Below are positions 12,799 through 31,957 of a DNA stretch of 64,000 nt, piece after piece. Made by a program: the position numbers and the translations under genes. Positions within the stretch are counted from its first letter, which is position 1. Every line of letters starts with the position of its first letter. The notes below the pieces were generated by a model. It saw nothing but the letters and a program-made list of their open reading frames with translations. It had not been told where the DNA came from and ran no database searches. Source of the DNA: Kiritimatiellia bacterium (GTDB lineage: Bacteria; Verrucomicrobiota; Kiritimatiellia; UBA8416; YA12-FULL-48-11); the NCBI GenBank assembly GCA_028716365.1, contig JAQUPZ010000007.1, positions 248,001 to 312,000 of the forward strand, written 5' to 3'.

Positions 12799-13988
12799 GG
12801 AGTCTTCTGAACGAGGAGAAATTCACGAGGCTTAACGGCAAAGTAGTAATCAATTCATTTCTGCCGCCTTTTCCAAGTGAGGCATTTAACAGATTGGGAC
12901 GAAGTATCCACTCGCTAATGGAGCACAAGGCAATACCCTTATCGGCATATATCTCTGTAACCAGTAAATGCAGATATAACTGCTGGCATTGCAGCAAGAC
13001 TCGAAGAACCGGCGAGGACATGTCGCGCGAAACGATCCTGTCACTTGTCAAGGATCTCCAGGAAATGGGAGTCTGTATTGTAGGGTTTACAGGTGGCGAA
13101 CCGATGTTGCGTGAAGATATGGGGGAAATCATTGGCTCGCTTGATGACAGGTCGGTTTCCATTCTGTTCACGTCCGGAGACGGTGTTACTAAGCAGAGAG
13201 GAAGAAAATTGAAGGAAATGGGGCTTTTTGGCGCCGCAGTGAGTTTGGATCATTACGAGCCGGCTATTCATGATGAACGCCGAGGTAAGAAAGGGGCATT
13301 TGAGACGGCGCTCAATGCGATCCGTATTTTCAGGGATAACGGTATGTACACCATGATCCAGCTTGTGGCAACAAAGGAGATGGCAGGGGATCAGGCGTTT
13401 GAACGTTACCTTGAGCTTGCCGGCAAACTAGGGGTACATGAAATCCGGCTGTTGGAACCTATGCCGACCGGCAACCTGATCGGTTGTGCGGGGAAGTGTA
13501 TGTTGAACGATAGTGAAAGAGCTACATTGAGACAATTGCATATCAAAACCAACAATCAGAAGGATATTACGAAGGTCTGCGCGTTTGCACATATTGAACA
13601 CAAGGAATTGTATGGCTGCGGGGCAGGGTTTCAACATCTCTATATTGATGCACAGGGGAATGTATGCCCCTGTGATTTCACGCCGGTTTCTTTCGGAAAT
13701 ATCAACAAAGAGAAGGTAAGTCTAATCTGGTCCCATTTGAACAAGGCGTTTGGCCGGCCTGGCTGTAAATGTTTCCTTCTGGAGAATGCCGATAAGCTGA
13801 ATCAGGCGTTTACTGGGACACTGCCGATAGAGTATACTAAAATCCGGAATTTGTGCCGCTTTCCGAAAGAGGGAGAACTGCCGGAATATTACAGAGTGCT
13901 GGGCTGGAAGAGTGAGTGTAATTGTTCTACAGGATTATCCTGGCAAGGGGAGGGAGTGAGCCGTGCTTTCGTATGCTCAAAAGCTTAG
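12771..13988 (+). CDS. Radical SAM protein with SPASM-like C-terminal cysteines
   Basis: CRYNCWHC (CxxxCxxC), GFTGGEPMLR, C-terminal CGAGFQHLYIDAQGNVCPCDFTPVSFGNI...GCKC. Start (TTG 12771) uncertain. Confidence 0.88.
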   Translation: MPLPVLWKIRSLLNEEKFTRLNGKVVINSFLPPFPSEAFNRLGRSIHSLMEHKAIPLSAYISVTSKCRYNCWHCSKTRRTGEDMSRETILSLVKDLQEMGVCIVGFTGGEPMLREDMGEIIGSLDDRSVSILFTSGDGVTKQRGRKLKEMGLFGAAVSLDHYEPAIHDERRGKKGAFETALNAIRIFRDNGMYTMIQLVATKEMAGDQAFERYLELAGKLGVHEIRLLEPMPTGNLIGCAGKCMLNDSERATLRQLHIKTNNQKDITKVCAFAHIEHKELYGCGAGFQHLYIDAQGNVCPCDFTPVSFGNINKEKVSLIWSHLNKAFGRPGCKCFLLENADKLNQAFTGTLPIEYTKIRNLCRFPKEGELPEYYRVLGWKSECNCSTGLSWQGEGVSRAFVCSKA

Positions 13989-16900
13989 TCGGTCGTTTGC
14001 TTGGTTGAACGTCACGCAGTTTCTCGGCGCGTTGAACGACAATGTGTTCAAGCTTATGCTGATTTATCTGCTGGTAAATGTCATGGGCGAGGAGCACCGT
14101 ACGGGGATAGTGGCGCTTGCTTTCGGACTTTTCGTAGTGCCGTTCCTTCTCTTCTCTCACGCCGCTGGCGTACTTGCCGACAGGATCAGTAAGAGGACGA
14201 TCATAGTAACCGTCAAGTTTATCGAGGTGGCCATAATGCTGATGGGCTGTGTTGCGGTCTTGACGCAGAACTCTATAGGATTGTTCAGTATTCTTTTCCT
14301 GCTGGGCTGCCATAGCACGTTGTTCAGCCCATCAAAATTCGGGATTATTCCGGAGCTTGTTCCCATCGAAAAACTGTCAATCGCCAACAGCTTCATTGAA
14401 GGTTTGACTTACATTGCGATCATCATAGGTACTTTCCTTCCGTCTTTCTTTTTGAAAGCCCTCGGTGGAACTTCCTTCGGACTCGTCTGCCTGTGCTTCT
14501 GTCTTGCCTGCGTAGGTGTTGTGACGAGCTTTGGAGTTGAGAAGACACCTGCGGCGGGGTCCTCAAAGAAATTTTCCCCCTGGTTCCTGCTGGAGATATT
14601 CAAGACGTTGAAAGAAACATCAAAAGACCGCCATCTTTTCCTGGCGATTACCGGTGCGGCGTATTTCCTTTTCCTCGGGGCCTTTATCCAACAGGACGTC
14701 CTGCTTTATGGGCAGGATTGCCTGGGCATGGACATCGAGGAAAGCGGATACCTTTTTCCGGTGGCAGCTCTTGGAATTGGAGCCGGCGCACTGCTTGCCG
14801 GGAAGCTGTCGGGAAGGAACATAGAGTTTGGGATTGTTCCGATAGGGGCCCTCGGTTTGACAATGGCGTGTGTCACCCTCGGATTAATGCCGCCATCGCT
14901 TAAGGGAACGCTAGTGCTTATTACTTTTATAGGAGTCTGTTGCGGTCTTTTCATTGTTCCTCTCAACGCTTTCATACAATATCGCAGCCCTGCTGACCGG
15001 CGCGGAGAGATACTGGCGTGTACAAACTTCCTGAGTTTTCTCGGCGTTGCATTGTCTGCAGGTATTTTCATGCTGTTAAATGGTGTTCTCGGGCTGACAG
15101 CAGGCCAGTGTTTTGTCACTGTTGGCGTGATGACCGGCATCCTCGCGGCGATTGCGATTGTTGTGCTGCCTGATTTTCTGATTCGTTGCGTAACAGTAAT
15201 AATTACCAAGTGTTTCTATAGGATAAACACAATCGGGTTGGAGAATCTGCCGATAGATGGTGGTGCTCTTCTGGTTTCGAATCATGTCACTTGGGTTGAT
15301 GCCCTGCTTATTTCGGCGACTGGCCAGAGGCGTATTCGCTTCATGATGGATCGTCATATTTACCAGAACAGATGGCTGAATCCGTTATTCAGGCTGATGG
15401 GTGTTATTCCTATATCCGTTGCGGATGGTCCAAGAGCCGTGCTGGGATCCCTTAAGAAGGCACGCGAGGAACTTGATGCCGGGTATATGGTCTGTATCTT
15501 TGCTGAAGGCGCCTTAACCCGTAATGGCAATACACGTGATTTTAAACCAGGCCTTGAGCGTATCGTAAAAGGATCCAGCCATCCGATTATCCCTGTATAT
15601 ATTGGTGGTGCGTGGGGCAGTATTTTCAGCTATTTCCATGCTCGGTTACTTGGCGGTTTACCCAGAGTGCTCCCGTATCCAGTTTCGGTGATCTTTGGAG
15701 CACCTATGCTCGCGACTTCCACATCGACACAGGTAAGAGAGGCGGTGATAGAACTTTCTACAAGGTTGTTTGATTTTAAGAAAGACAGAAATAGATCCCT
15801 GGCCGGATTGTTTGTGTCCAGGGCAAGGCGCAGGTGGTTTGCGACGGCGCTTGGCGATACTACGGGGAAGCGTCTTACTTTTGGGAAGACTCTGATTTCC
15901 GCCATTGCCTTGTCACGGGAAATTAACGCTATTTCTTCCGGTCAGGACAAGATAGGCATAATCATGCCGGCGTCAGTTGGCGGGGCGTTGGTTAATGTCG
16001 CGGTTACCCTGCTGGGTAAAGTGCCGGTGAATCTCAACTTCACCAGTTCAGCCGAATCGGTTTCATCAGCCATCCGGCAGTGCGGAATGAAAACGATCAT
16101 TTCTTCGCGGGCCTTTGCGGCGAAACTTGAAGGCTTTGTTATGCCCGAAGGGACTGTTTTTCTTGAAGATATTGCAGCGCGAATCACTCCTGCCTCAAAG
16201 ATAATTGCAACGATACAAGCCATGATTGTCCCGGTGAGGTTACTGATGCGCCACAGGAAGGTGGGACCGGATGACATTGCTACAATTATTTTCTCGTCTG
16301 GCAGCACGGGAGATCCCAAAGGCATCATGCTGAGCAATCACAACATTATTTCGAACGTGGAATCTTTCCTGATGATAATGCATTTCGGGCGCATGGACGG
16401 AATGTGCGGCGTTTTGCCTTTTTTTCACTCTTTTGGCTTCACGACTACGCTGTGGTGCCCGCTGCTTAAGGGGTTCCGCGTGTTCTATCACCCGAACCCG
16501 GTTGAAGGAACCAAGATTGCTGAACTTGTACGCGAGAACAAGCTGACCGTGTTGCTTTCCACACCTACTTTTCTAATGTCATATATCCGGCGCGCAACCA
16601 GGAAGGATTTTGCCAGCCTGCATATTGTTGTTACGGGTGCTGAGAAGTTAAAGAAGAAGGTAGCGGATCACTTTGAGCAGCAGTTTGGAGTGAGACCACT
16701 GCAAGGTTACGGGACAACTGAGCTGTCGCCGGTTGCGGCATTGAATGTTCCTGATGTCAAGATTGACGGAGTCAAACAGGTTGGGACCAAGGAGGGAAGC
16801 ATAGGACAGCCGATACCAGGCGTTGCGATGACGATCGTTGATCCGGATTCGGGCGCTGTCGTTCCTGAAGGCGGCCAGGGACTGTTACTTGTTAAAGGGC

Positions 16901-17382
16901 CCAATGTGATGCTGGGCTACCTGAATAGCCCGGAGAAGACCGCTGAAGTTATCAAGGATGGCTGGTACAACACTGGAGACATAGCGAAGATTGACAACGA
17001 CGGTTTTGTATTTCTGCATGATCGCCTGTCGCGGTACAGTAAGATCGGCGGCGAGATGGTGCCCCACATGGCGGTGGAGGATAAAATATTTCACCAGCTT
17101 GGAGCCGTGGGCCATGTTATCTACGTGACCGCAATACCCGACGAGAGGAAAGGGGAACAGCTGATCCTGTTCCATACCGATGAGGCTGGGGATTCGGATA
17201 GTCTTTACAGGATCATTGCGGAGAGTGATCTCCCGAACCTGTGGAAACCGCGCCGCGAAAATATTATAAGGATTGAAACAATGCCTACATTGGGGTCCGG
17301 CAAACTGGATCAGAAGAAACTGAAACAAAAAGCACAGGAGTTTGCAGCCAGGCAGCAAACGTGCTCGGGGAATTATGAATAA
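13963..17382 (+). CDS. Trifunctional fusion: MFS/LplT-like transporter - PlsC acyltransferase - acyl-AMP ligase (Aas-like)
   Basis: N-terminal ~400 aa multi-TM MFS; NHVTWVDALLIS and FAEGALTRNGNTRDFKPG acyltransferase motifs; IIFSSGSTGDPKGIMLSNHNI AMP-binding motif; C-terminal YNTGDIAKIDNDGF. Confidence 0.9.
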   Translation: MLSYAQKLSRSFAWLNVTQFLGALNDNVFKLMLIYLLVNVMGEEHRTGIVALAFGLFVVPFLLFSHAAGVLADRISKRTIIVTVKFIEVAIMLMGCVAVLTQNSIGLFSILFLLGCHSTLFSPSKFGIIPELVPIEKLSIANSFIEGLTYIAIIIGTFLPSFFLKALGGTSFGLVCLCFCLACVGVVTSFGVEKTPAAGSSKKFSPWFLLEIFKTLKETSKDRHLFLAITGAAYFLFLGAFIQQDVLLYGQDCLGMDIEESGYLFPVAALGIGAGALLAGKLSGRNIEFGIVPIGALGLTMACVTLGLMPPSLKGTLVLITFIGVCCGLFIVPLNAFIQYRSPADRRGEILACTNFLSFLGVALSAGIFMLLNGVLGLTAGQCFVTVGVMTGILAAIAIVVLPDFLIRCVTVIITKCFYRINTIGLENLPIDGGALLVSNHVTWVDALLISATGQRRIRFMMDRHIYQNRWLNPLFRLMGVIPISVADGPRAVLGSLKKAREELDAGYMVCIFAEGALTRNGNTRDFKPGLERIVKGSSHPIIPVYIGGAWGSIFSYFHARLLGGLPRVLPYPVSVIFGAPMLATSTSTQVREAVIELSTRLFDFKKDRNRSLAGLFVSRARRRWFATALGDTTGKRLTFGKTLISAIALSREINAISSGQDKIGIIMPASVGGALVNVAVTLLGKVPVNLNFTSSAESVSSAIRQCGMKTIISSRAFAAKLEGFVMPEGTVFLEDIAARITPASKIIATIQAMIVPVRLLMRHRKVGPDDIATIIFSSGSTGDPKGIMLSNHNIISNVESFLMIMHFGRMDGMCGVLPFFHSFGFTTTLWCPLLKGFRVFYHPNPVEGTKIAELVRENKLTVLLSTPTFLMSYIRRATRKDFASLHIVVTGAEKLKKKVADHFEQQFGVRPLQGYGTTELSPVAALNVPDVKIDGVKQVGTKEGSIGQPIPGVAMTIVDPDSGAVVPEGGQGLLLVKGPNVMLGYLNSPEKTAEVIKDGWYNTGDIAKIDNDGFVFLHDRLSRYSKIGGEMVPHMAVEDKIFHQLGAVGHVIYVTAIPDERKGEQLILFHTDEAGDSDSLYRIIAESDLPNLWKPRRENIIRIETMPTLGSGKLDQKKLKQKAQEFAARQQTCSGNYE

Positions 17383-19834
17383 AATTTTTTTAAGGATTGT
17401 TAATGTTATTCTTTTCCTGTTTCTGGTTTTCATTCTCGCGGGTTGCACGAGCATGGAAATGAAAGGGACACCTTTCTATACAGGCGAATACGAATTGCGG
17501 AAAGGACCAGCGGAAGACCGGGTAAATGTATGGCCGTTAATGTATTACCGTGACCCCGCCTTGTCGGTCCTTTGGCCAACAGTTGAGCTTACGGACGATC
17601 ATTTTGCCATAAGGCCACTGATGTCTGTCTACGGTTTGGGCGGGAAGGATAAGGAATACAATGTTCTTTGGCCTCTGGGGCAGTTTGACTTCAAAGCCGG
17701 GAACAGCCGGATATTTCCGTTTTTCTGGGGGAAAGATTACTTTACGGCTTTTCCTCTTTACTGGCATTTTGATCATCCTTTTGCCAGTGATGGATATGAT
17801 GGACTGATTCCGTTATGGTCCTATTATGCCGACAAGCATGGTTACAGCCTTTATATGCCGTGGCCGATAATACGCATCAAGCAGACAGACGGCGGGAGCG
17901 GCTGGCATCTCTGGCCACTGGCAGGAAATTACAGTCATGATGATGGTTATTACCGATTCCTCTTCTGGCCACTGGGACATCAATGGTCCGATCATGATGG
18001 TGTCGAATCCGGTAATTCTCTTATTCCACTCTACCTCAGGAGCAAGGACAAGGAAGGCTCTGCGTTTTTCTCGTTACCGTGGTCATCCGGGAATGACGCC
18101 GACGGCTCAAGCTGGCAGCTGACTCCGCCTTTGTTCTACCATTCGTCCGATGAGAAGGATGGTTCGATGTTTCTGTCACCCCTGTACTGTCAGGGAAGTG
18201 ATGTTTCGGGAAGTGATAAGTGGAGTCTGTTGTTGCCACTTTACTACCATTCAAAGGACGCAAACGGCAGCATGTTTGTTTCCCTGCCGTGGTTGTCAGG
18301 CGAAGATGCCGGAGGGAACGGCTGGCATCTGGTTCCGCCTCTTTTTTTCCGGGAGAAAGGGAAGTTTCATGATTTGCTTCTGACCCCACTGTATTCGCAC
18401 GGTCAGTCCGGTGAAGGGAAGAAGAGGTGGAGCATGATGCTGCCATTATATTATGAGAGTGAATTGGATAATGAGCGGCTTTTTACAACGATCCTTGGCG
18501 GATACAGCAGTGATTTCAGCGGAAGAAAATGGATGATTTATCCGCTACTATCAGGTGGTAAACGGGGAGAAGATAGCGGCGATTTATGGCTGGCGGCTCC
18601 TTTTGTCCACGCGCGATGGAACAAGGATCATGTTTCCAGTCACATCATGCCGCTGTATTACTGGGACGGCGAGGACAGGACGTTTGTTTCGCCGGTTTAT
18701 GCACGTTGGCGGACGGAAACTGGCCGAATAACGGGGCTTGTTCCGCCTGCCTTGTCGTGGTTTACGGGCGGTGACAGGCGAAATGATTTGTGGATTGCAG
18801 GTCCGCTGGCGCATTTCAGCTGGGGTGAAGATGCTGGATCCAGTCACGTGTTTCCGTTGTTCTATAATGACGGCAAGGAAGAGACTATTGTTTCTCTGCC
18901 AATCGCCAGATGGAAGTCAGAAGGCAGGTCAAATATTGTCTACCCGTTGCTGTTGTCAGGTTATTCTACGGATGGAACGGACATGGATATAATCGCTCTT
19001 CTCGGGTTGTTCCATAACAAGTGGAATCCCGACGTTACGAAGAGGAGCGGACATCTCTTGCCGCTGTACTATTACGAAGATAAGACATTTTATACCCCGC
19101 TGTTCGGATGGAAGAACGAGAAGTGTGATGGTTTCTATTATCCCCTTACGCCGATTCTTGGCGTGAAGACCGGCGATTTCTGGGGTGGATGGTTGTTCCC
19201 TCTATGCTCATACGGCAGGGAGCGCCAGACGGGGGAAATTGACGGGACTTTCCTGTGGGGCATGTACTGGCGTGACAAACAGGAATCAGGGTCTGTCTTT
19301 TTTCCTGTTTACGGCTACTGGAACGATGGCTCGCTTGAAAGCGTGACCCATACGAACAGGACTGGCAGCTACGGTACGACTTTTGTCTCTTTTCCTGCAT
19401 GCTGGTACAAGAACAGGGTGCAGGTTCGGACAGATAAGGCTGGCAGGGAGAGGATCACCAACCGCATGGAAAACGGATTCTTTCCATTGTGGAACTATTC
19501 GGATGTTGAGAGCCCTGCCGACGGGAAGGCAGACGTCAACGCCAGCGTATTTCTCCTTCTTTGCGATTACAAACGCGAGGTCAGGCCTGTGAAGAATGAT
19601 GCACAGGCAAAAGACGAATATACCAGGGCGAGGATTTTATGGCGACTCTGGCACTATGAACGTTCTAACGACGATGTAAGCGTTGATGTGTTTCCGGCGA
19701 TAACATACGACAGGAAGAGCGGTAAATTCAGGAAGGTGTCTTTCCTGTGGCGGTTCTTCAGGTACGAAAGGGACGAGAAAGGGAAAAAGGCGGATATCAT
19801 ATTCATCCCCGTGATACGGACGGGAGTGAAATGA
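17375..19834 (+). CDS. Lipoprotein built of degenerate WPL/PLYY-type repeats
   Basis: Lipobox VFILAG-C; repeated units such as LLPLYYHSKDANGSMFVSLPWLSGEDAGGNGW; start MNKIFLRIVN at 17375. Confidence 0.8.
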   Translation: MNKIFLRIVNVILFLFLVFILAGCTSMEMKGTPFYTGEYELRKGPAEDRVNVWPLMYYRDPALSVLWPTVELTDDHFAIRPLMSVYGLGGKDKEYNVLWPLGQFDFKAGNSRIFPFFWGKDYFTAFPLYWHFDHPFASDGYDGLIPLWSYYADKHGYSLYMPWPIIRIKQTDGGSGWHLWPLAGNYSHDDGYYRFLFWPLGHQWSDHDGVESGNSLIPLYLRSKDKEGSAFFSLPWSSGNDADGSSWQLTPPLFYHSSDEKDGSMFLSPLYCQGSDVSGSDKWSLLLPLYYHSKDANGSMFVSLPWLSGEDAGGNGWHLVPPLFFREKGKFHDLLLTPLYSHGQSGEGKKRWSMMLPLYYESELDNERLFTTILGGYSSDFSGRKWMIYPLLSGGKRGEDSGDLWLAAPFVHARWNKDHVSSHIMPLYYWDGEDRTFVSPVYARWRTETGRITGLVPPALSWFTGGDRRNDLWIAGPLAHFSWGEDAGSSHVFPLFYNDGKEETIVSLPIARWKSEGRSNIVYPLLLSGYSTDGTDMDIIALLGLFHNKWNPDVTKRSGHLLPLYYYEDKTFYTPLFGWKNEKCDGFYYPLTPILGVKTGDFWGGWLFPLCSYGRERQTGEIDGTFLWGMYWRDKQESGSVFFPVYGYWNDGSLESVTHTNRTGSYGTTFVSFPACWYKNRVQVRTDKAGRERITNRMENGFFPLWNYSDVESPADGKADVNASVFLLLCDYKREVRPVKNDAQAKDEYTRARILWRLWHYERSNDDVSVDVFPAITYDRKSGKFRKVSFLWRFFRYERDEKGKKADIIFIPVIRTGVK

Positions 19835-19847
19835 TGGGTGGAATCGG

Positions 19848-20483
19848 ATGACTGAGATACAGCAAATACCTTTGGCTTTACTGGTCGTGCTTACAGGCGC
19901 ATTGAGTTACCTGGCTGGCTGCTTCTGTACAGGTTACTATTTTGTCCGTTTCAAAACAGGCAAGGACTTGAGAACGATTGGTTCCGGTACGGTCGGGGCC
20001 AGAAATGCAGGCCGGGAACTGGGTAAGACCGGCTTCGCCGTAACATTTCTTGGAGATCTGTTCAAGGGAGTTTTGGCAGTCTCCGCAACAAGGATGTTGG
20101 TATCATTGCCGTTGATGACAGCGTTGTCACTGGTTGCGGTTGTCTTGGGGCATGTGTTCCCAGCTCAGCTCCATTTCCGGGGTGGTAAGGGATATGCAAC
20201 GTTGACGGGTGGTGTGCTTGCGTTAAGTCCTAAACTTGTACTGATACTGTTTCTTTGTGTCGTTTTGTGCGGGGTCGTCACACGGCTGTACAAGCCATGC
20301 GGCCTGATGGCGCTTGCCCTTTTGCCATTTGCCTCAATACCTGTGATTAGGGAATTGGAATGTCTTGTCGGAATATCAATTGCGGTCGTGATTGTTCTCG
20401 CGGCCCACAGGAAGAATATTGCCGCCGGACTCAATTTGCTGTTTTGCCGTCGCGTGGAGAAGGATATTTCCTTAAAGAGGTGA
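19848..20483 (+). CDS. plsY: Glycerol-3-phosphate acyltransferase PlsY-like membrane protein
   Basis: GSGTVGARNAGRELGKTGFAVTFLGDLFKG, FPAQLHFRGGKGYATLTGGVLAL: PlsY-like motifs in altered form. Confidence 0.85.
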   Translation: MTEIQQIPLALLVVLTGALSYLAGCFCTGYYFVRFKTGKDLRTIGSGTVGARNAGRELGKTGFAVTFLGDLFKGVLAVSATRMLVSLPLMTALSLVAVVLGHVFPAQLHFRGGKGYATLTGGVLALSPKLVLILFLCVVLCGVVTRLYKPCGLMALALLPFASIPVIRELECLVGISIAVVIVLAAHRKNIAAGLNLLFCRRVEKDISLKR

Positions 20484-20489
20484 CAGGAT

Positions 20490-22133
20490 ATGCAATCGCT
20501 TGTTTTCAGGATAGCCTCTGAACAGTGGGAGTTTGAAGAAATTCACAAGCTCAATTATGAGACTTTCGTGGATGAGATTCCTCAGCATGGACGTAACCCG
20601 GACCGGAAGCTGGTTGATAAATTTCACGATCAGAATACCTATGCCATTTGCCTGTTGAACGGGCAATTGACGGGGATGCTCGCCCTTCGAGGACAAAGGC
20701 CATTTTCTCTTGATTTTAAACTGGAAAATCTCGATTCATATCTTCCGTGTGGACGATCAGTCTGTGAGATTCGTCTGCTTGCTGTGAGGAAGAACATGAG
20801 GAATGGCGGTATTTTCCATGGTCTGATTAAAATGGCGATGAAGTATTTCGAAGAGCACGGGTATGACCTTGCAGTGATTTCCGGGACGACAAGGCAGCAG
20901 AAACTATATCGCCACATGGGCTTCATTCCTTTTGGCCCGCTTGTGGGTAAGCAAGGAGCTCTCTATCAGCCTATGTATCTGTCGATTGAATCTTTTCGCG
21001 AAAAGGTTGAGAGTGTTTCGGACAATGGCAATGATCCCGGAGTAAAAGATGCTACATGCGGCAAAGCCAACAGTGCGGGGAAAAAGCCATTTGTGAATCT
21101 CATGCCCGGGCCTGTTCAGGTCCACCAGAATGTGCTTGATGCATTTCGGGTGGAGCCGTTTTCCCATCGTTCCGACCATTTCATCGCGGAGTTCAAAGAA
21201 ACCAAGCGCATGCTGTGTGAGCTGGTTGGGACGCTCCATGCGGAGATTTTCCAGGGGAGCGGAACACTCGCTAACGATGTCATCGCGGCAGAGCTGTCTC
21301 TTGGACATTTTCGCGGGTTGATTCTTGTCAACGGCGAGTTTGGTGAAAGGCTGGTGGATCATGCCGAACGGCAGGAATTGGAATTTGATGTTATCCGATC
21401 GGGGTGGGGCGATCCTTTCGACTACAGCTTGGTGGAACAACATCTAGAGAAACACGATAGCGTCGAATGGATTTGGTTTGTTCATTGCGAGACATCCACA
21501 GGAGTTCTTAATGATTTACCGGGAATTCTTGGCATTTGCAGGAAGCGCGGAATAAAAGTCTGTGTTGATGCCATCAGCTCGATCGGTACATTGCCTGTTG
21601 CGCTTGGTGATGTGTATCTTGCTTCCTGTGTCAGCGGCAAGGGGCTCGCATCGCTCCCTGGCCTGGCGGTTGTATTCCATAACCATGAAATCGCTTCAGG
21701 TGGCAGAAAGGTACCGCGTTATTATGACCTGGGTTATTATGCTGCTGCCAAAGGTGTCCCATTCACATTTTCATCGAATATGCTTCATGCCTTCAGGGCG
21801 GCGTTAAAACGGTTTAGGTCGGATTCCCGGTTCAAAATGATAAGACAGATGTCGGAGTGGCTCAGGGGTGAGATGCGAAAACGCGGTCACAGGATTCTTG
21901 CATCGGATAATTGTGCATCTCCAGCAGTGACCACCATTGTTTTGCCGCCATCCGTCAGTTCCCGCCAGATAGGGCTGCGACTGGAGGAAAGAGGATGCCT
22001 TCTGAGCTGTAACAGCGAGTATCTGTTGAAGCGGAACTGGTTGCAGATTTGCCTGATGGGTGAGTGCTCGCTTGAGAATCTTGCATGGGCAGTTGACCAG
22101 TTGTCTGATGTAGGCGAGGAGAATATTGCATGA
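20490..22133 (+). CDS. GNAT (FeeM/PEP-CTERM-type acyltransferase-like) - class V aminotransferase fusion
   Basis: N-terminal GNAT-like region (EIRLLAVRKNMRNGGIFHGLIKMAMKYFEEHGYDLAVIS...YRHMGF); C-terminal PhnW/AGT-like PLP fold (NLMPGPVQVHQNVLDAF, CETSTGVLNDL, VDAISSIGTLPVAL, SGKGLASLPGLAVVF). Confidence 0.82.
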   Translation: MQSLVFRIASEQWEFEEIHKLNYETFVDEIPQHGRNPDRKLVDKFHDQNTYAICLLNGQLTGMLALRGQRPFSLDFKLENLDSYLPCGRSVCEIRLLAVRKNMRNGGIFHGLIKMAMKYFEEHGYDLAVISGTTRQQKLYRHMGFIPFGPLVGKQGALYQPMYLSIESFREKVESVSDNGNDPGVKDATCGKANSAGKKPFVNLMPGPVQVHQNVLDAFRVEPFSHRSDHFIAEFKETKRMLCELVGTLHAEIFQGSGTLANDVIAAELSLGHFRGLILVNGEFGERLVDHAERQELEFDVIRSGWGDPFDYSLVEQHLEKHDSVEWIWFVHCETSTGVLNDLPGILGICRKRGIKVCVDAISSIGTLPVALGDVYLASCVSGKGLASLPGLAVVFHNHEIASGGRKVPRYYDLGYYAAAKGVPFTFSSNMLHAFRAALKRFRSDSRFKMIRQMSEWLRGEMRKRGHRILASDNCASPAVTTIVLPPSVSSRQIGLRLEERGCLLSCNSEYLLKRNWLQICLMGECSLENLAWAVDQLSDVGEENIA

Positions 22134-22846
22134 CCAGTACGTTTATGCTGGGGAAAAAGATTATGGAGACAGGTTGCCCACAGCGGACAGAAAATGTCCT
22201 TTACTCTACGCCGGAACTCCTGGCTGTCATTGTCTGCGGGGCCGGGCATGTTCTGATTGAAGTGTTTTCGGATGGTATAAGCAGCGGGACCGGTTCGATA
22301 ACCAGGCCTCAGCATTATTACAATATTACTGCATTTGTTCTATGGGGTATCTACCTGTTATGGCAGCTTGCCAGGGTACATGGTATCGCTCAGGAATGGG
22401 GCTTCAGGAAGGAAGGATTCGTCAGAACAATCAAGGCCTGCTTGATATTTGCTTTGTTTGCCATGATCCCATTGCTGATATACAGCTGGAGATATTCAAG
22501 ATTTCCTTTGCCGGTTACCTTCTGGCTGGTCATGGCCCTCTACCCGGTATGGGGACTGGGCCAGCAGTTTGCCCTGCAGGCGTTGATCACTAGGAATCTC
22601 AGAACATTTGTGCCGGGCCTTTGGTCCAGGATACTGACAGCATCAGTGATTTTCAGTGTGGCGCATTTCCCGAATTACTGGCTGATGGTTCTGACGCTGA
22701 TTGCCGGCGTAGCTTTCAGCTGGATTTATGAGAAATACCGTAACCTGTGGGCCATAGGAATTGTTCATGGTTTTCTGGGCGCATTGGCGTATTATCTGGT
22801 GTTGGGAGATGATCCGGGAGCGGAGATCCTGGGGTTGTTCCGGTGA
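22130..22846 (+). CDS. CPBP-like intramembrane protein with non-canonical motif 1
   Basis: Multi-TM; FSVAHFPN (FxxxH motif), IGIVHGFLGALAYY; motif 1 position reads GQQFALQ rather than EExxxR. Confidence 0.6.
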   Translation: MTSTFMLGKKIMETGCPQRTENVLYSTPELLAVIVCGAGHVLIEVFSDGISSGTGSITRPQHYYNITAFVLWGIYLLWQLARVHGIAQEWGFRKEGFVRTIKACLIFALFAMIPLLIYSWRYSRFPLPVTFWLVMALYPVWGLGQQFALQALITRNLRTFVPGLWSRILTASVIFSVAHFPNYWLMVLTLIAGVAFSWIYEKYRNLWAIGIVHGFLGALAYYLVLGDDPGAEILGLFR

Positions 22847-23745
22847 GTGGGTGTGACAAAAAGGCGAGGTCTTCAGTAATGGAAATAATTTGGATGATTG
22901 TACGGATCAGCATAGGAGTGTATGTCGGGCTTTGCCTCTTCGTTTTCCTTGGGCAGTCACGCTATGTCTATTATCCGGACCGGACCGTCGACAACACACC
23001 GGACAGCGCTGGCCTTGAATTTGACAACGTGAGTGTCCCGACGCAGGATGGCGAAACAATTACCGGCTGGTTTGTTCCTGTCGGTAAAGGCGGCGGCGAA
23101 GCTGGAAAATCATTGTCGGTGTTGTTGTGCCACGGTAATGGCGGCAATATTGGTGACAGGGTGGATCAGGTAAAAATATTCCATAACATGGGGTTCAACG
23201 TGTTGATTTTTGATTACCGCGGTTATGGAACCAGCACCGGCAAGCCCACGGAGAAGGGTACGTATTACGATGCCTTGGCGGCATGGAACTACCTGAAGGT
23301 CCCAAAAGGGATTGAGTCGAAACATATCGTGGTGTTCGGACAATCGCTTGGCGGTGCTGTCGCAAGCTGGCTGGCGGAGCAGGTCAATCCAGGCGCTCTT
23401 ATCCTTGAGTCGACGTTAACATCGGCGCTGGATATGGGTGCGAGAATGTTTCCTTACCTGCCAGTGTGGCTGTTCTGCACGTTTAAGTATGACAGCCTGT
23501 CGAAGATGGGAAATATCCATTGCCCCGTGATCGTGGCGCACAGCCGTGACGATGAGACCATTCCTTTTGAGCACGGCCAGAAACTATTCAAGGCGGCAAA
23601 TGAACCGAAGTTGTTTATTGAAATAGGGGGCGAGCACAATTCCAGTGGGATTGAATTTGATTCTTCATACAGAACTGTTGCCGTAGAATTTTTAAAGAAG
23701 AACATGGTTAATGATTCGGCGCATAAAACGGGAGAAAAGCAATGA
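22843..23745 (+). CDS. Membrane-anchored alpha/beta hydrolase
   Basis: N-terminal TM; HGNGGN, DYRGYGTSTGKPTEKG, FGQSLGGAVASWLAEQ, HSRDDETIPFEHG. Confidence 0.88.
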   Translation: MSGCDKKARSSVMEIIWMIVRISIGVYVGLCLFVFLGQSRYVYYPDRTVDNTPDSAGLEFDNVSVPTQDGETITGWFVPVGKGGGEAGKSLSVLLCHGNGGNIGDRVDQVKIFHNMGFNVLIFDYRGYGTSTGKPTEKGTYYDALAAWNYLKVPKGIESKHIVVFGQSLGGAVASWLAEQVNPGALILESTLTSALDMGARMFPYLPVWLFCTFKYDSLSKMGNIHCPVIVAHSRDDETIPFEHGQKLFKAANEPKLFIEIGGEHNSSGIEFDSSYRTVAVEFLKKNMVNDSAHKTGEKQ

Positions 23746-26210
23746 GCGTATGGCTTTTTATTCTATTATTGGTCAACACCATCATCCTGATCCTCGTTAA
23801 ACGGAATGTGAAAAAGCTGGAAGAGAAGGGACAGATGCTGTCTTCGCGGGTTGAATACTTGAACCAGGAGGTCAGGGACTTTTTGAACAATCTCCGCCCT
23901 GGCGGACCAAAAGCACAGGATCTTACAACAACAAAACAGCAGCAACCGGTTATACAGGAATTCACGGACAAAGAAAAACCACGGCAGGCCGCGGCGCCAG
24001 TTACAGCCGTACCTGGTACAAAGCCCGTTCAACCGCCCCCAATGCATGTATTCACAGAGGAGCCTGCAATTGTGCCAAGACCTGTGACTGTGGGTGCCGG
24101 ACAACAGTCCGGGTTTGCGGAATCGGCAAGGGAAGTGCTTGGAAAGATATGGCGCTGGATTGTTTATGGCGATGAGAACAGGCATGAGGGTGTGAGTACA
24201 GAGGTGGCAGTTGCGACTACCTGGCTGATAAGGGTCGGGGTGATTGTTGTGGTTGTTGGGGTGATCTATTTCCTGAAATGGTCGCTCGAGCGTGACCTGA
24301 TTTCCCCGGCAGCGCGGGTTGGCGTAAGCATGATAGCGGGTATTTCCCTGTTGGTATTCGGATTGAAGCTCTTGGGCAAGAAGTATCATCTCATGGGGCA
24401 GGGTCTCCTTGGTGGCGGTTTGCTGATCCTTTATGCAAGTTCCTTTTCAGCGGGACCGGTTTATCACCTGTTTGGATCATCATCAATGATAGCGGCATTT
24501 GCGCTTATGATTCTTGTGACAGCGGCTGCGGGGATTGTGGCGGTGAGAACCGATTCTCTGCTGGTTGCCGTGATCGGTATCGCTGGCGGTTATATGACGC
24601 CGGTGATGCTTCGGACCAGCACACCGAATTTGCCGGGTTTCTATTCCTATATCCTGCTGTTGAGCCTCGGAATAATGGCCATAGCTTACTATAAACAGTG
24701 GCGGCTTCTTAACTACCTTGGTTTCATCGGTACGTATGTTCTGTTCTTTGCCTCGCTGGATAAGGTGTATAAGCCTGATGATTTTATGCTGGCAATGTCG
24801 TTTGTCACGGCCTTCCTGGTGGTTCATTCGTCGATTGTTTACCTGCACAACATTGCCAGGGGTAATAAGAGCACGACGCTTGAAATAATCCATCTTGTCG
24901 CCAATGCCCTGCTTTTTGCCTGGGCGGCGTACTGGCTGATTCACGGGAAATACGGCAGGCCGTATCCGGCGATAATGTCGCTGGGTCTCGCCATCTTTTA
25001 CATTACCCATGTCCTGGTATTCCTGAAAAAGAAACTGGCCGACCGGGTTCTGCTTGTAGCCTTGATTGCGCTGGCCGGAACATTCACAACGTGGACGCTC
25101 CCACTGATATTCGAGAAGGAGACACTCACCATCAGCCTTTCGCTTCTTGCACTGATGTTTTTGTGGCTTGGCAGGAAGCTGAACAGCAACTTTCTCGAAA
25201 ACCTGGGACATGTTGTATATTGCGTTGTATTCTTCCGTCTCATCTACTGGGATATCCCGCGCAATTTTGCACTTATGCCCAAGGTAGACGAACCGATATC
25301 CGAATACTGGAAGCACATGGTCGGGCGGTTGTGGATATTCGGCATTTCCATCGGTTCTGTCATTGCCGGTTTCTTTATCCAACGAAAGAGGATAGAACCT
25401 GGTGCCGAATTAGCGGTTTCTGTGGCGAACAATACGCCGCAGATCATTGGCCGCGAGGTGGCGGGCGGTGCTTTCTACTGGTTCGCGATCCTGTTCGTGT
25501 TTCTTTTTGCCCATCTCGAGCTCAATACCATGTTCATGTATTTCAGCGAGTTCAGACTACCGGTCCTGACCGTGCTGTGGTGCGCGATGGGTTTCTACTT
25601 CTTCAACAGATACCTTGCGGGTGATGCACAGGACAAGATTGCACTTTATGCCATGTGTATTTTTCTGATGCTGGCTGTGTTGAAAATCTTTGTCTTTGAC
25701 CTCACATCGTGGCATTTCTGTGACCGGCTTGTCTATGACATGGAATATAATTTCCTTTATGCCGGGACCAGGCTGTTGGATTTCGGTGTGTTGATAGCGA
25801 TGTTCCTGACTGTATGGCAGCTTGTCGGCGTAAAGCGAGGTGACTGGGTGATAACATCGGCATTCGGGTACGGCGCATTATTCCTTCTGTTTGTCTATGC
25901 GACACTGGAGTTGAATAGCCTCCTGTTCTGTAAAATGGCTAAATTTCAGAAGGGCGGAATATCGATACTATGGGCTTTATTCGCGATAGGATTCATCTCG
26001 GGTGGCATCTGGAAGAATATCACGGCACTGCGATACCTTGGCCTGGCCCTATTTGCGGTTGTTGCGGGGAAGGTGTTCCTTGTCGACCTGTCGGGCATGG
26101 AAATGATTTACCGCGTGGTAGCATTTGTTGCCGTCGGGATTATCCTGCTGCTAGGGGCTTTTGCATATCTGTATTCCGGAAAGAAATTCATGAAAGGCGG
26201 ACGAACGTGA
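23742..26210 (+). CDS. DUF2339-type polytopic membrane protein
   Basis: Coiled-coil N-terminus, then many TMs beginning TWLIRVGVIVVVVGVIYFLKWSLERDLISPAARVGVSMIAG (typical of DUF2339). Confidence 0.8.
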   Translation: MSVWLFILLLVNTIILILVKRNVKKLEEKGQMLSSRVEYLNQEVRDFLNNLRPGGPKAQDLTTTKQQQPVIQEFTDKEKPRQAAAPVTAVPGTKPVQPPPMHVFTEEPAIVPRPVTVGAGQQSGFAESAREVLGKIWRWIVYGDENRHEGVSTEVAVATTWLIRVGVIVVVVGVIYFLKWSLERDLISPAARVGVSMIAGISLLVFGLKLLGKKYHLMGQGLLGGGLLILYASSFSAGPVYHLFGSSSMIAAFALMILVTAAAGIVAVRTDSLLVAVIGIAGGYMTPVMLRTSTPNLPGFYSYILLLSLGIMAIAYYKQWRLLNYLGFIGTYVLFFASLDKVYKPDDFMLAMSFVTAFLVVHSSIVYLHNIARGNKSTTLEIIHLVANALLFAWAAYWLIHGKYGRPYPAIMSLGLAIFYITHVLVFLKKKLADRVLLVALIALAGTFTTWTLPLIFEKETLTISLSLLALMFLWLGRKLNSNFLENLGHVVYCVVFFRLIYWDIPRNFALMPKVDEPISEYWKHMVGRLWIFGISIGSVIAGFFIQRKRIEPGAELAVSVANNTPQIIGREVAGGAFYWFAILFVFLFAHLELNTMFMYFSEFRLPVLTVLWCAMGFYFFNRYLAGDAQDKIALYAMCIFLMLAVLKIFVFDLTSWHFCDRLVYDMEYNFLYAGTRLLDFGVLIAMFLTVWQLVGVKRGDWVITSAFGYGALFLLFVYATLELNSLLFCKMAKFQKGGISILWALFAIGFISGGIWKNITALRYLGLALFAVVAGKVFLVDLSGMEMIYRVVAFVAVGIILLLGAFAYLYSGKKFMKGGRT

Positions 26211-28840: not shown

Positions 28841-28878
28841 TTTGCCGTTGACACTTTATGGGTTGGTGTGCAGAATTC
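28841..28878 (+). promoter_or_regulatory. Copy 1 of a recurrent promoter-like motif
   Basis: TTTGCCGTTGACACTTTATGGGTTGGTGTGCAGAATTC; TTGACA (28848-28853)-N17-CAGAAT (28871-28876). Confidence 0.6.
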
Positions 28879-28924
28879 TTTCAACAAAACGAATCCTTGT
28901 GATCTTCCGCGAAAGGAGCAAAAC

Positions 28925-31900
28925 ATGTTCCGTCGAATTCGAATCTATTTCAAAAGCTGGTTTCTTTGTTTATGGTTAATTTTCTGTGTTGTGACCGTCA
29001 GTAGTACAGTGGCTGCGCAATCTTCGGGGCTCTCAGCATCAACTGACTTGATCCTGCAAAAAGGCAAGATTAATGGCGGTTTATGCGTTCAAATTGGTTG
29101 TGATGATATCGCAATACCTCTTGAACTTGCGCGTACCGGTCGTTTCCTTGCACAGATACTCGATACGGATGCTACCCGTGTGGGTCGAGCCCGGGACCAA
29201 ATACATTCCCAGGGGGCTTACGGCCTTGTTTCGGTGGATACGATCAAATCTCCTGCGAAATTACCATATACTGAAAACCTCGTTGATTTATTGATTATCC
29301 GGTCCGGCCCGGCGTTAAATAATGTTTTGTTTGCCGAAGTGACCCGTGTGTTGAGACCGGGTGGAATTGTTGTTCTGATAAACACAGAGGGAAAGGAATC
29401 CGTATTAAAAGAAGCAGGGTTTCAAGATGTAGGTACATTGCAAGCGGATAAGCCATGTTTGGCAGGTTGTAAACCGCGGCCAGTGACAATGGGTGATTGG
29501 ACACATCCCCGACACAGTGCCGATGGTAATACGGTTTCCAGTGATACGCTGGTGGGTCCGCCCCGCCGTGTTCGATGGGTGACTGGCCCTGAACGTGAGA
29601 ACAGCCGTTTAATCACGTCTGCCGGGATGAATTTTTATGCCGACATTCTTGCGCGGGATTCATTCAATGGCCTTCGAATCTGGCAGCGTCCGCTAAAGGC
29701 CAGTGGACCGGCGATTCCAGTGGCGGAAGGCGGGTTGTTATTTGTAGTTACTGAGAAGAAACTTCTGGCCCTTGATGGTATCACTGGTACAACCGTTCGA
29801 GAATATCCTGAAGCCGGCACGCCAAGGGATTTAATGGTGACCAATGGTGTGTTGGTTGCTGTTGATGCCATGTCAATCAAGGCACTGGATGTTGCAACGG
29901 GTAAATTACGATGGAAATTCGATGTATCGGATCCACGTTCTGTGATTGCCGGTGATAATGCGGTTTATTTCTTGAAGGGTTCCCTGCTGAGTTTTGTAAG
30001 ACCCGAGGTGGTCAGTCTTGATTTGAATAACGGTCAGGTTCGTTGGCAGAAAAAAGATTATCCTTGGAATCCTCTGGGCCCGGGTATCCGCCGGATGGTT
30101 TATCACCGTGGATTGCTGGTTTATGAAGTATCCACGCTGAATAATGACAAGCCGGGTAATTCGATTCATGTCGTATCCGCTGATGATGGTCATCTGCTCT
30201 GGAGTCGTGAATTTATTCCAAGCATGAACCATGTGAAACAGGCAAGAGCGATGTTTATTGACGATATGTTGTGGGTGTTGGATCACCTTACCGCCATGGC
30301 ATTGGATCCGAAAACAGGGGAAGTGAAGAAAAAGTTTCCAGCCGGCCTTTGCCATTGTTTTCCTCCGGTAGCAACCCCGCGATACATGTTTTCCGGCGAA
30401 ATGGAATTGACGGATCTGAACAGCGGCCTGCTTGATGCCAATCGGATCACCAAGGCGAATTGCAGTCCGGATTACGGATGGATACCAGCCGACGGATTGA
30501 TTTATGTCTGTCCAAAGCACTGTGTTTGCTGGCCTATGCTGCGCGGGTTCCTGGCCATGGCGCCTGCTTTGCCAGGCAGCAGTATTAAGAAAGATGTCAG
30601 ACCGGCCGATTTTGTATTCGAAAAAGGAGTTAATACGTCGATCTCGAACATTTCAGCACCTGCCGATGAATGGCCATGTTATCGTCGGGATTCATGGCGA
30701 AGTGGCAGTATTTCCACGCCGGTTCCGGCGCAACTGAAACCTTTATGGACAGCAAAAATGGGTGACTGGCCGGAAGGAACTATTGTTGAAGACTGGCGCG
30801 ATAACCCGTTTATACGTGGTCCGGTTACTGCTCCGGTAGTTGCATGTGGTAAAGTGTTTGTGGCCCGACCTGATGCGCATCAAATTGTGGCCTTGGATAT
30901 GCAGTCAGGGGAAGTCAAGTGGCGCTTTACGGCCAACGGTCGCATTGATACGGCGCCGACGATCCATCGCGGGTTATGTCTGTTTGGTACAAAAAGTGGT
31001 TGGGTCTATTGCCTGAATGCCGGAGACGGGCAGCAGATATGGCGGTTACGTACGGCACCAAACGATGAACGAATTATTGCCTATGGTCAGATTGAATCAC
31101 CGTGGCCGGTACCGGGCAGTGTACTGGTCGTGGATAACGTGGCATATTTTGCGGCCGGACGTCATCCGCTTGCCGATGGAGGTATTCTTGTGTTTGCTGT
31201 GGAGCCTTCCAGCGGCAAAATCCGCTGGGTAAAACGACTCGATTCGCTGACGAACAAGCATTTTTATGGTACTGTCGGCAAACATTTCTATGCTTCCAAC
31301 AGCCTTGAATTCGATAATTTCAATCTTCTTCAGCAGGAAGATGATTCAGTCTCCATGTCGCGCTGGTTGTTCAATCGTGAGAATGGCCAGATGAACTCTA
31401 AGTTAAAGGATGCGTTCCTTCTGGCCAAAACGGGCGGATCCGGTGTGATGGTCCAGCGTGCATGCTGGGGTTATGCACCCCGTCACATGCCACGTCATAG
31501 ACGCGAAACACCTACACGCGGGCTGTCGGTTTTCCGTGACAACACGCTCCTTGGCAGTCTGGATGACGGACGTACTGTTTATCGCAGGGATTTTCATCTC
31601 GACCGTGCTGAGAAATTTGATCCGACATGGTTGACCGGTTGGGCTGCCGGCGAAAATGCCAACAAAGGAATCGGAGAATTCTGGTTGAGTCACCGTCTAT
31701 TTAAAAAGGCAACTTGGTCAGTTCCCATTTTTACCGAGGATGAACCGAAACAGAAAGTGGCGGCAATGGTACTGGCGGGCGACCGCCTGTTTACTGTGGG
31801 CATAGAAGGTGGCCTGACGGTCATGTCGACAACTGATGGTGGGGTCATTACTCGCATGCCTTTGGAAAAACCTGTTTGGGATGGCATGGCCGCAGCTGGT

Positions 31901-31957
31901 GGAAAGTTGTTTGTGTCCACACAGAATGGAGATGTGATCTGCCTGGGTGGAGAATAG
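28925..31957 (+). CDS. Secreted PQQ-like beta-propeller protein with N-terminal methyltransferase-like domain
   Basis: Signal peptide; GGLCVQIGCDDIAIPLELARTGRF...VTRVLRPGGIVVLIN (Rossmann MTase-like); PQQ-type repeats (LALDGITGTTVREY, KALDVATGKLRWKF, ALDMQSGEVKWRF, YCLNAGDGQQIWRLRT). Confidence 0.82.
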   Translation: MFRRIRIYFKSWFLCLWLIFCVVTVSSTVAAQSSGLSASTDLILQKGKINGGLCVQIGCDDIAIPLELARTGRFLAQILDTDATRVGRARDQIHSQGAYGLVSVDTIKSPAKLPYTENLVDLLIIRSGPALNNVLFAEVTRVLRPGGIVVLINTEGKESVLKEAGFQDVGTLQADKPCLAGCKPRPVTMGDWTHPRHSADGNTVSSDTLVGPPRRVRWVTGPERENSRLITSAGMNFYADILARDSFNGLRIWQRPLKASGPAIPVAEGGLLFVVTEKKLLALDGITGTTVREYPEAGTPRDLMVTNGVLVAVDAMSIKALDVATGKLRWKFDVSDPRSVIAGDNAVYFLKGSLLSFVRPEVVSLDLNNGQVRWQKKDYPWNPLGPGIRRMVYHRGLLVYEVSTLNNDKPGNSIHVVSADDGHLLWSREFIPSMNHVKQARAMFIDDMLWVLDHLTAMALDPKTGEVKKKFPAGLCHCFPPVATPRYMFSGEMELTDLNSGLLDANRITKANCSPDYGWIPADGLIYVCPKHCVCWPMLRGFLAMAPALPGSSIKKDVRPADFVFEKGVNTSISNISAPADEWPCYRRDSWRSGSISTPVPAQLKPLWTAKMGDWPEGTIVEDWRDNPFIRGPVTAPVVACGKVFVARPDAHQIVALDMQSGEVKWRFTANGRIDTAPTIHRGLCLFGTKSGWVYCLNAGDGQQIWRLRTAPNDERIIAYGQIESPWPVPGSVLVVDNVAYFAAGRHPLADGGILVFAVEPSSGKIRWVKRLDSLTNKHFYGTVGKHFYASNSLEFDNFNLLQQEDDSVSMSRWLFNRENGQMNSKLKDAFLLAKTGGSGVMVQRACWGYAPRHMPRHRRETPTRGLSVFRDNTLLGSLDDGRTVYRRDFHLDRAEKFDPTWLTGWAAGENANKGIGEFWLSHRLFKKATWSVPIFTEDEPKQKVAAMVLAGDRLFTVGIEGGLTVMSTTDGGVITRMPLEKPVWDGMAAAGGKLFVSTQNGDVICLGGE

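Follow-up and report, generated by a model that had tools for sequence, protein, structure and literature searches.

A GNAT–aminotransferase fusion beside a divergent PlsY paralogue, a candidate two-gene module for phospholipids with an amide-linked chain

The window, by which is meant the whole 64,000-nucleotide stretch of Kiritimatiellia DNA that was analysed, carries an uninterrupted open reading frame of 547 aa occupying exactly positions 20490–22133 of the forward strand, in which an N-terminal GNAT domain is joined to a C-terminal class V aminotransferase domain (Table 1). Immediately upstream lies the gene for a divergent paralogue of the acyltransferase PlsY, referred to here as PlsY2. 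The fusion starts 6 bases past the PlsY2 stop codon, and the Shine-Dalgarno-like stretch lies 6 bases ahead of the fusion ATG. A first-pass annotation made from the sequence had reported PlsC and PlsY nearby. The PlsY is indeed present as the adjacent paralogue, but the PlsC is not a free enzyme and belongs to a fusion of LplT, PlsC and acyl-ACP synthetase (Aas) that lies 3 kb upstream. An Aas-type gene was found near the fusion in eight of the loci compared, as in the window, and a role of its product in acyl supply or remodelling is possible.

Table 1. Genes, domains and residues discussed in the text, with their positions in the window.
Feature	Position	Strand	Basis
Aas-type LplT-PlsC-acyl-ACP synthetase	13963..17382	+	NF006386, 1349 bits (cut-off 1221)
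PlsY2, divergent PlsY paralogue ending 6 bases before fusion	19848..20483	+	PF02660, 123.8 bits; altered acceptor-site residues
PlsY2 Arg52, at aaPlsY Thr41 (acyl-phosphate carbonyl contact)	20001..20003	+	alignment to aaPlsY
PlsY2 Gly152, at aaPlsY Ser142 (G3P 2-OH contact)	20301..20303	+	alignment to aaPlsY
AAGAGGTGA, Shine-Dalgarno-like stretch of fusion, overlapping PlsY2 stop codon	20475..20483	+	read from sequence
GNAT-aminotransferase fusion, 547 aa	20490..22133	+	uninterrupted ORF; Pfam and NCBIfam models; orthologues; AF2
GNAT (FeeM/N-acyl amide synthase-like) domain, residues 1-177	20490..21020	+	PF21926 above cut-off; AF2 pLDDT 94.9; TM-scores
Disordered interdomain linker, residues 178-196	21021..21077	+	pLDDT below 50
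Class V aminotransferase domain (AGT/PhnW-like), residues 197-547	21078..22130	+	Aminotran_5; Foldseek match 7e7g
His226-Arg227, aligned with SerC His-Arg pair (E. coli His41/Arg42; SHR of SerC)	21165..21170	+	SerC alignment
Asp360, PLP pyridine-N partner	21567..21569	+	invariant; role taken from class V fold
Lys384, PLP Schiff-base lysine	21639..21641	+	invariant, 73/73 and 39/39 Bacilli
Gln519, in place of substrate-carboxylate Arg	22044..22046	+	alignments with 7e7g, 1vjo, 2dr1 and SerC

Between the Aas-type gene and PlsY2 lies a gene for an 830-aa protein (17342–19834) with repeated WPL/PLYY motifs and a sub-cut-off match to the Leptospira LA_1737 family (36.4 of 60 bits), which was not found at other fusion loci. 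The fusion is followed by genes for a CAAX-type protease, an alpha/beta hydrolase and a long membrane protein (22130–26210), whose 4-base overlaps indicate that the operon probably continues past the fusion; these genes were not conserved at other fusion loci. Elsewhere, the window opens with the tail (1–505; L061:2–12406) of a reading frame exceeding 4,100 codons, which starts outside it, and a 1029-aa ORF (28868–31957) has, by eye, an N-terminal SAM-methyltransferase-like region and PQQ-type repeats. Besides PlsY and Aas, recurrent neighbour clusters were mostly limited to related organisms, the exception being an ABC-transporter-like protein at seven loci (cluster 9; L065:3375–5033 and six others) in Verrucomicrobiota, Acidobacteriota and Desulfosporosinus.

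Both halves of the fusion were recognised by family models, with the FeeM family (PF21926) matching residues 19–152 at 40.2 bits (cut-off 27) and Aminotran_5 matching residues 225–502 at 34.4 bits (cut-off 21.5). The AlphaFold2 model, built with 73 homologues, has a mean pLDDT of 92.8 and consists of two confident domains separated by the linker, while its pTM of 0.69 means that the relative placement of the two domains is not fixed. The earlier description of a FeeM-type acyltransferase fused to a class V PLP enzyme was thus upheld, and the domain-boundary and fold prediction it proposed as a check placed the GNAT domain at residues 1–177, the linker at 178–196 and the aminotransferase domain at 197–547. 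The AGT/PhnW-like character of the latter was also recovered, at about 350 aa rather than the 360 first estimated.

The isolated GNAT domain was modelled with a pLDDT of 94.9. Its query-normalised TM-scores were highest with the AHL synthases BjaI, LasI and TofI (0.75–0.79, BjaI being 0.79), followed by FeeM (2g0b; 0.70–0.73), whereas the acetyltransferases among the matches listed reached 0.56–0.68. Glu93, Arg95 and Arg104 are invariant in the alignment of fusions, and the pyrophosphate loop (P-loop) that binds CoA is degenerate and not conserved. These data support a GNAT domain of the FeeM type and not of the CoA type; the unconserved loop is also consistent with long-chain acyl-ACP as the donor. 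Stand-alone GNATs with 58–61% identity to this domain occur at L044:15642–16244 and L045:2973–3734, the former convergent with a gene resembling CdsA by eye, and no matching PLP domain was found in either genome.

In the aminotransferase domain the SGKGLASLPG lysine motif, which the first-pass annotation had pointed out, was located at residues 382–391. Its Lys384 is invariant, as are Asp360, Glu334 and Ser336, and the ETST and GEFG loops are intact. With the PLP lysine, the aspartate and the fold all in place, the domain belongs to the class V aminotransferases; the best Foldseek match was the AEP transaminase 7e7g (TMt 0.88), other AGT/PhnW structures also superposed, and TMt values against transaminases were 0.8–0.9. 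The best NCBIfam model, PhnW-AepZ (residues 204–540), scored 150 bits, far under its equivalog cut-off of 360.8.

The substrate site of this domain differs from that of its relatives. His226 (kept in 72 of 73 fusions) and Arg227 (73 of 73) align with the His-Arg pair that SerC uses to bind phosphoserine at its phosphate. In E. coli SerC the pair also touches a bound substrate analogue at its side-chain carboxylate (PMC6797613), and it is present too in AGT-like enzymes with unphosphorylated substrates. Gln519 takes the place of the substrate-carboxylate-binding arginine, Arg347 of AGT1, which has been described as common to all aminotransferases (PMC6797613); the equivalent arginine of PhnW lies in an xFRxGxxG motif. 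This glutamine is invariant in 112 of 112 fusions (73 of 73 plus 39 of 39 from Bacilli). The SerC alignment at this position has an hhalign probability of only 34%, yet its motifs are in register at both ends. A PEP mutase over the cut-off was found in none of 10 fusion genomes checked, six of which gave no match whatever, and AEP is for this reason an unlikely head group. The missing PEP mutase disfavours phosphonate head groups, although a catabolic PhnW role would need no such enzyme.

Adjacent but unfused GNAT and class V aminotransferase genes were seen at five loci (L046:10811–12414, L047:8376–10168, L048:9175–10778, L049:9319–10523 and L050:8769–10366), with 27–35% identity to the two halves of the fusion and Glu at the position of Gln519. 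The PLP gene of L049 is cut short and its PLP domain probably interrupted. With Glu at position 519 and no PlsY found near any of them, these pairs are distant cousins and were set aside as support for the chemistry. Related MarR-family regulator genes lie directly before the split pair of L048 (8708–9178) and before an Aas-fusion pair (L037:14055–14549), and a regulator common to these two loci is possible.

Among 289 genomes of the window's phylum, the full fusion was present in 14, the window's own counted, and the 13 others carry full-length copies with 43–50% identity; two further genomes (G223 and G132) have GNAT-only genes that are 57–60% identical. A profile scan confirmed at least 568 relatives in named genomes, and 80 of these were kept. 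They came from Verrucomicrobiota, Kiritimatiellota, Planctomycetota, Thermodesulfobacteriota, Myxococcota, Acidobacteriota, Chloroflexota, Thermomicrobiota, Gemmatimonadota, Pseudomonadota, Bacillota, Sumerlaeota, Krumholzibacteriota and Hydrogenedentota. Several dozen further fusions were found among 400 Bacilli genomes, and with the Bacilli included the fusion was examined in at least 13 bacterial phyla. The 13 other genomes and the many relatives exclude chance or mis-assembly, and the fusion is confirmed as real. A tree built from the PLP domain separates the fusions from the ordinary class V enzymes that served as outgroup, and phyla are in part intermixed; given many weak inner branches and the meeting of long branches, no evolutionary history is claimed from it.

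Immediately before the fusion, on the same strand, stands a gene for a PlsY homologue in 72 of the 94 non-Bacilli loci fetched (69 of 91 once three duplicate records are removed). Bacilli show this arrangement at 30 of 40 loci, with a PlsY copy that is often far more diverged. The two genes often overlap by 4 bases or abut, and about a quarter of the fusion loci are without PlsY2. Orthologues that never keep company with lipid genes had been named at the outset as a refutation of the lipid reading; this refutation failed, since they do so in about three quarters of loci and in many phyla, and the lipid connection is far stronger than could be seen from the window alone. Apparent triple PlsY–GNAT–aminotransferase fusions (L067, L087, L094, L126) were rejected, as they are out-of-frame upstream extensions only and PlsY is a separate overlapping gene. 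The genome of the window has a second PlsY (G000:C3:234855). Pair-bearing genomes in general hold one further, canonical PlsY and most pairless fusion genomes the canonical copy only, which argues that PlsY2 is an additional enzyme dedicated to the fusion locus; exceptions are G015, whose one copy is the linked one, and the genomes of L073 and L120, which have none.

PlsY2 is a member of the PlsY family (PF02660 cut-off 24.1 bits) with the framework of motifs 1–3, and scores 111.3 bits against the 137.2 of the TIGR00023 equivalog. In Aquifex PlsY the clamp on the G3P phosphate consists of Ser35, Arg45, Lys104 and Asn180, while Ser142 and His177 touch the 2-OH of G3P, and Thr41 touches the carbonyl of the acyl phosphate (PMC5700162). 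Of these, 101 linked PlsY2 proteins keep Ser35 in 99, Arg45 in 96, Lys or Arg at 104 in 100, His177 in all 101 and Asn180 in 58. The position of Ser142 holds Ser in 1 of 101 (mostly Gly, as in the window) versus 22 of 26 canonical copies, leaving the G3P pocket incomplete, and that of Thr41 holds Thr in 15 of 101 (mostly Arg) versus 26 of 27 canonical copies. The loss of Thr41 in most PlsY2 suggests that their acyl donor or activity may differ, and shared ancestry could be a partial cause of the residue changes.

Gln519 with the retained His-Arg pair and, independently, a PlsY2 phosphate clamp that is mostly kept without Ser142 point to a phosphorylated three-carbon unit with no carboxylate and no plain 2-OH. 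Dihydroxyacetone phosphate (DHAP) and its amination product serinol phosphate would fit such a substrate, with a phosphate but lacking an alpha-carboxylate, and such an acceptor, G3P-like except at C2. There is precedent for such a reaction, as RtxA transaminates DHAP to serinol phosphate (PMC3222319) and the human class V enzyme PSAT1 does so slowly (PMC9283133). We infer DHAP as substrate, the acyl donor, the order of steps and the final lipid as the chemistry that best explains the domains of the fusion, its conserved catalytic residues, the adjacent PlsY paralogue and the altered acceptor sites of both enzymes. The PLP domain would aminate a phosphorylated three-carbon ketone at C2, most likely DHAP with an amino donor, to give serinol phosphate; the fused GNAT would capture this amine by attaching a long-chain acyl group, with acyl-ACP the probable donor, to give N-acyl-serinol phosphate; and PlsY2 would esterify the free hydroxyl. 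The resulting 1-O-acyl-2-N-acyl serinol phosphate would be a phosphatidic acid analogue whose C2 chain is held by an amide, able to enter phospholipid synthesis. Alternatively, acylation of DHAP by PlsY2 may come first, followed by amination of acyl-DHAP in the PLP domain, with an identical product. That amination and N-acylation reside in one polypeptide, as first proposed, is supported at the level of predicted domain function, and joining them would capture the amine ahead of diffusion or acyl migration.

We put the chances of such a two-gene lipid module, leading from DHAP through N-acylation and PlsY2 O-acylation to an amide analogue of phosphatidic acid, at about even. The replacement by Gln519 leaves the hold on the carboxylate of an amino-acid donor unexplained and counts against the DHAP scheme, as do the occurrence of the His-Arg pair in enzymes with unphosphorylated substrates, the frequent loss of Thr41 and the retention of the clamp residue Asn180 in just 58 of 101 PlsY2. 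The quarter of loci without PlsY2 and the GNAT-only genes of G223 and G132 show that the O-acylation step is not universal and that the same holds for the PLP partner; loci without PlsY2 may end with the N-acyl product, or rely on Aas or the canonical PlsY instead.

The loci without PlsY2 agree with a pathway that stops at N-acyl serinol or the phosphate of this amide, which would be secreted or act as a signal, with PlsY2 as an accessory that, for example, supplies or consumes acyl phosphate. The nearest known product, a precedent for this reading and for the serinol phosphate scheme alike, is the N-acyl serinol of Gemella, where an NAS makes N-palmitoyl serinol (PMC11271093). We consider this reading rather unlikely, as the pairing is conserved and the specifically altered PlsY2 acceptor site, with most of its phosphate clamp, points to a related phosphorylated acceptor. 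It is improbable that the PLP domain makes an alpha-amino acid which the GNAT N-acylates, yielding an ornithine-lipid-like aminolipid O-acylated by PlsC/PlsY. Members of the FeeM family do acylate amino acids and lipid genes adjoin the fusion, but Gln is invariant where a carboxylate Arg would be expected, the OlsB model reaches just 12.7 of 350 bits, and the partner is not OlsA/PlsC but a paralogue of PlsY, an enzyme whose chemistry takes a phosphate-bearing acceptor and whose phosphate clamp PlsY2 mostly keeps. The ornithine-lipid logic of the first-pass annotation is accordingly not supported, leaving its interpretation as a whole partly supported, and serinol phosphate is a more likely head group than an amino acid. 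The loss of the carboxylate Arg, and the Glu found there in the diverged split homologues, would also suit a lyase or other PLP enzyme that frees the amine acceptor from a different precursor; with Lys384, Asp360 and both loops intact and a fold matching transaminases, we give this a low probability. Finally, an N-acylated phosphonolipid built on 2-aminoethylphosphonate is very improbable, since the best family model and the best fold match are indeed PhnW-like but the PhnW-AepZ score is low, the equivalent Arg is Gln and PEP mutase is missing.

The pairing of fusion and PlsY across many phyla suggests an undescribed route to phospholipids with an amide-linked fatty chain, and a literature search found no description of the fusion with a PlsY module. 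That serinol phosphate-backbone phospholipids, with an amide instead of the sn-2 ester, are made by PlsY2 and the fusion as a widespread bacterial pathway is a tentative proposal, to which we give somewhat less than even chances. The exchange of amide for ester is known from GlcN3N lipid A, and these lipids would be its proposed phospholipid counterpart. If the proposal is true, many bacteria, cultured Bacilli and Desulfobacterota included, would make a phospholipid backbone not derived from glycerol-3-phosphate. Such an amide backbone would withstand esterases and phospholipases A2, the lipid (about 1 Da lighter) would be misread in lipidomics as ordinary PA or PE, and microbial N-acyl serinol signalling lipids would be tied to membrane biosynthesis. 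Even with a wrong head group, a conserved module has been defined.

When compared with known systems, the Gemella N-acyl serinol synthase (hm-NAS) gene described by Cohen and colleagues in 2017 reportedly carries an aminotransferase domain as well. As described in two papers (PMC11271093, PMC10666787), the enzyme resembles the fusion in its NAS/GNAT chemistry and in forming the amide of a C2-amino three-carbon unit; neither paper reports a PlsY partner, and the product is regarded as a signalling amide and not a phospholipid precursor. FeeM N-acyl amino acid synthase and the AHL synthases have in common with the fusion the fold, the PF21926 match, the degenerate CoA loop and the ExR motif, but they are stand-alone enzymes acting on an amino acid or SAM. 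The class V aminotransferases PhnW, AGT1 and SerC share the fold, PLP lysine, Asp, ETST loop and SerC-type His-Arg pair, the fusion differing by its invariant Gln for the carboxylate Arg and by the attached GNAT. RtxA, the dihydroxyacetone phosphate aminotransferase, would correspond to the proposed first reaction, DHAP to serinol phosphate, but is fused to a sulfhydrylase-like domain and serves rhizobitoxine without acyl transfer. The OlsB/OlsA system of ornithine lipids likewise has two steps, N- and then O-acylation, whereas the module described here has no OlsB match, would make its amine in situ and has an O-acylation partner of the PlsY type. PlsY2 itself is like the glycerol-3-phosphate acyltransferase PlsY in its PF02660 match, its His177 and a phosphate clamp that is mostly kept, but it has lost Ser142 and mostly Thr41, and it is nearly always an extra, non-canonical copy beside the fusion.
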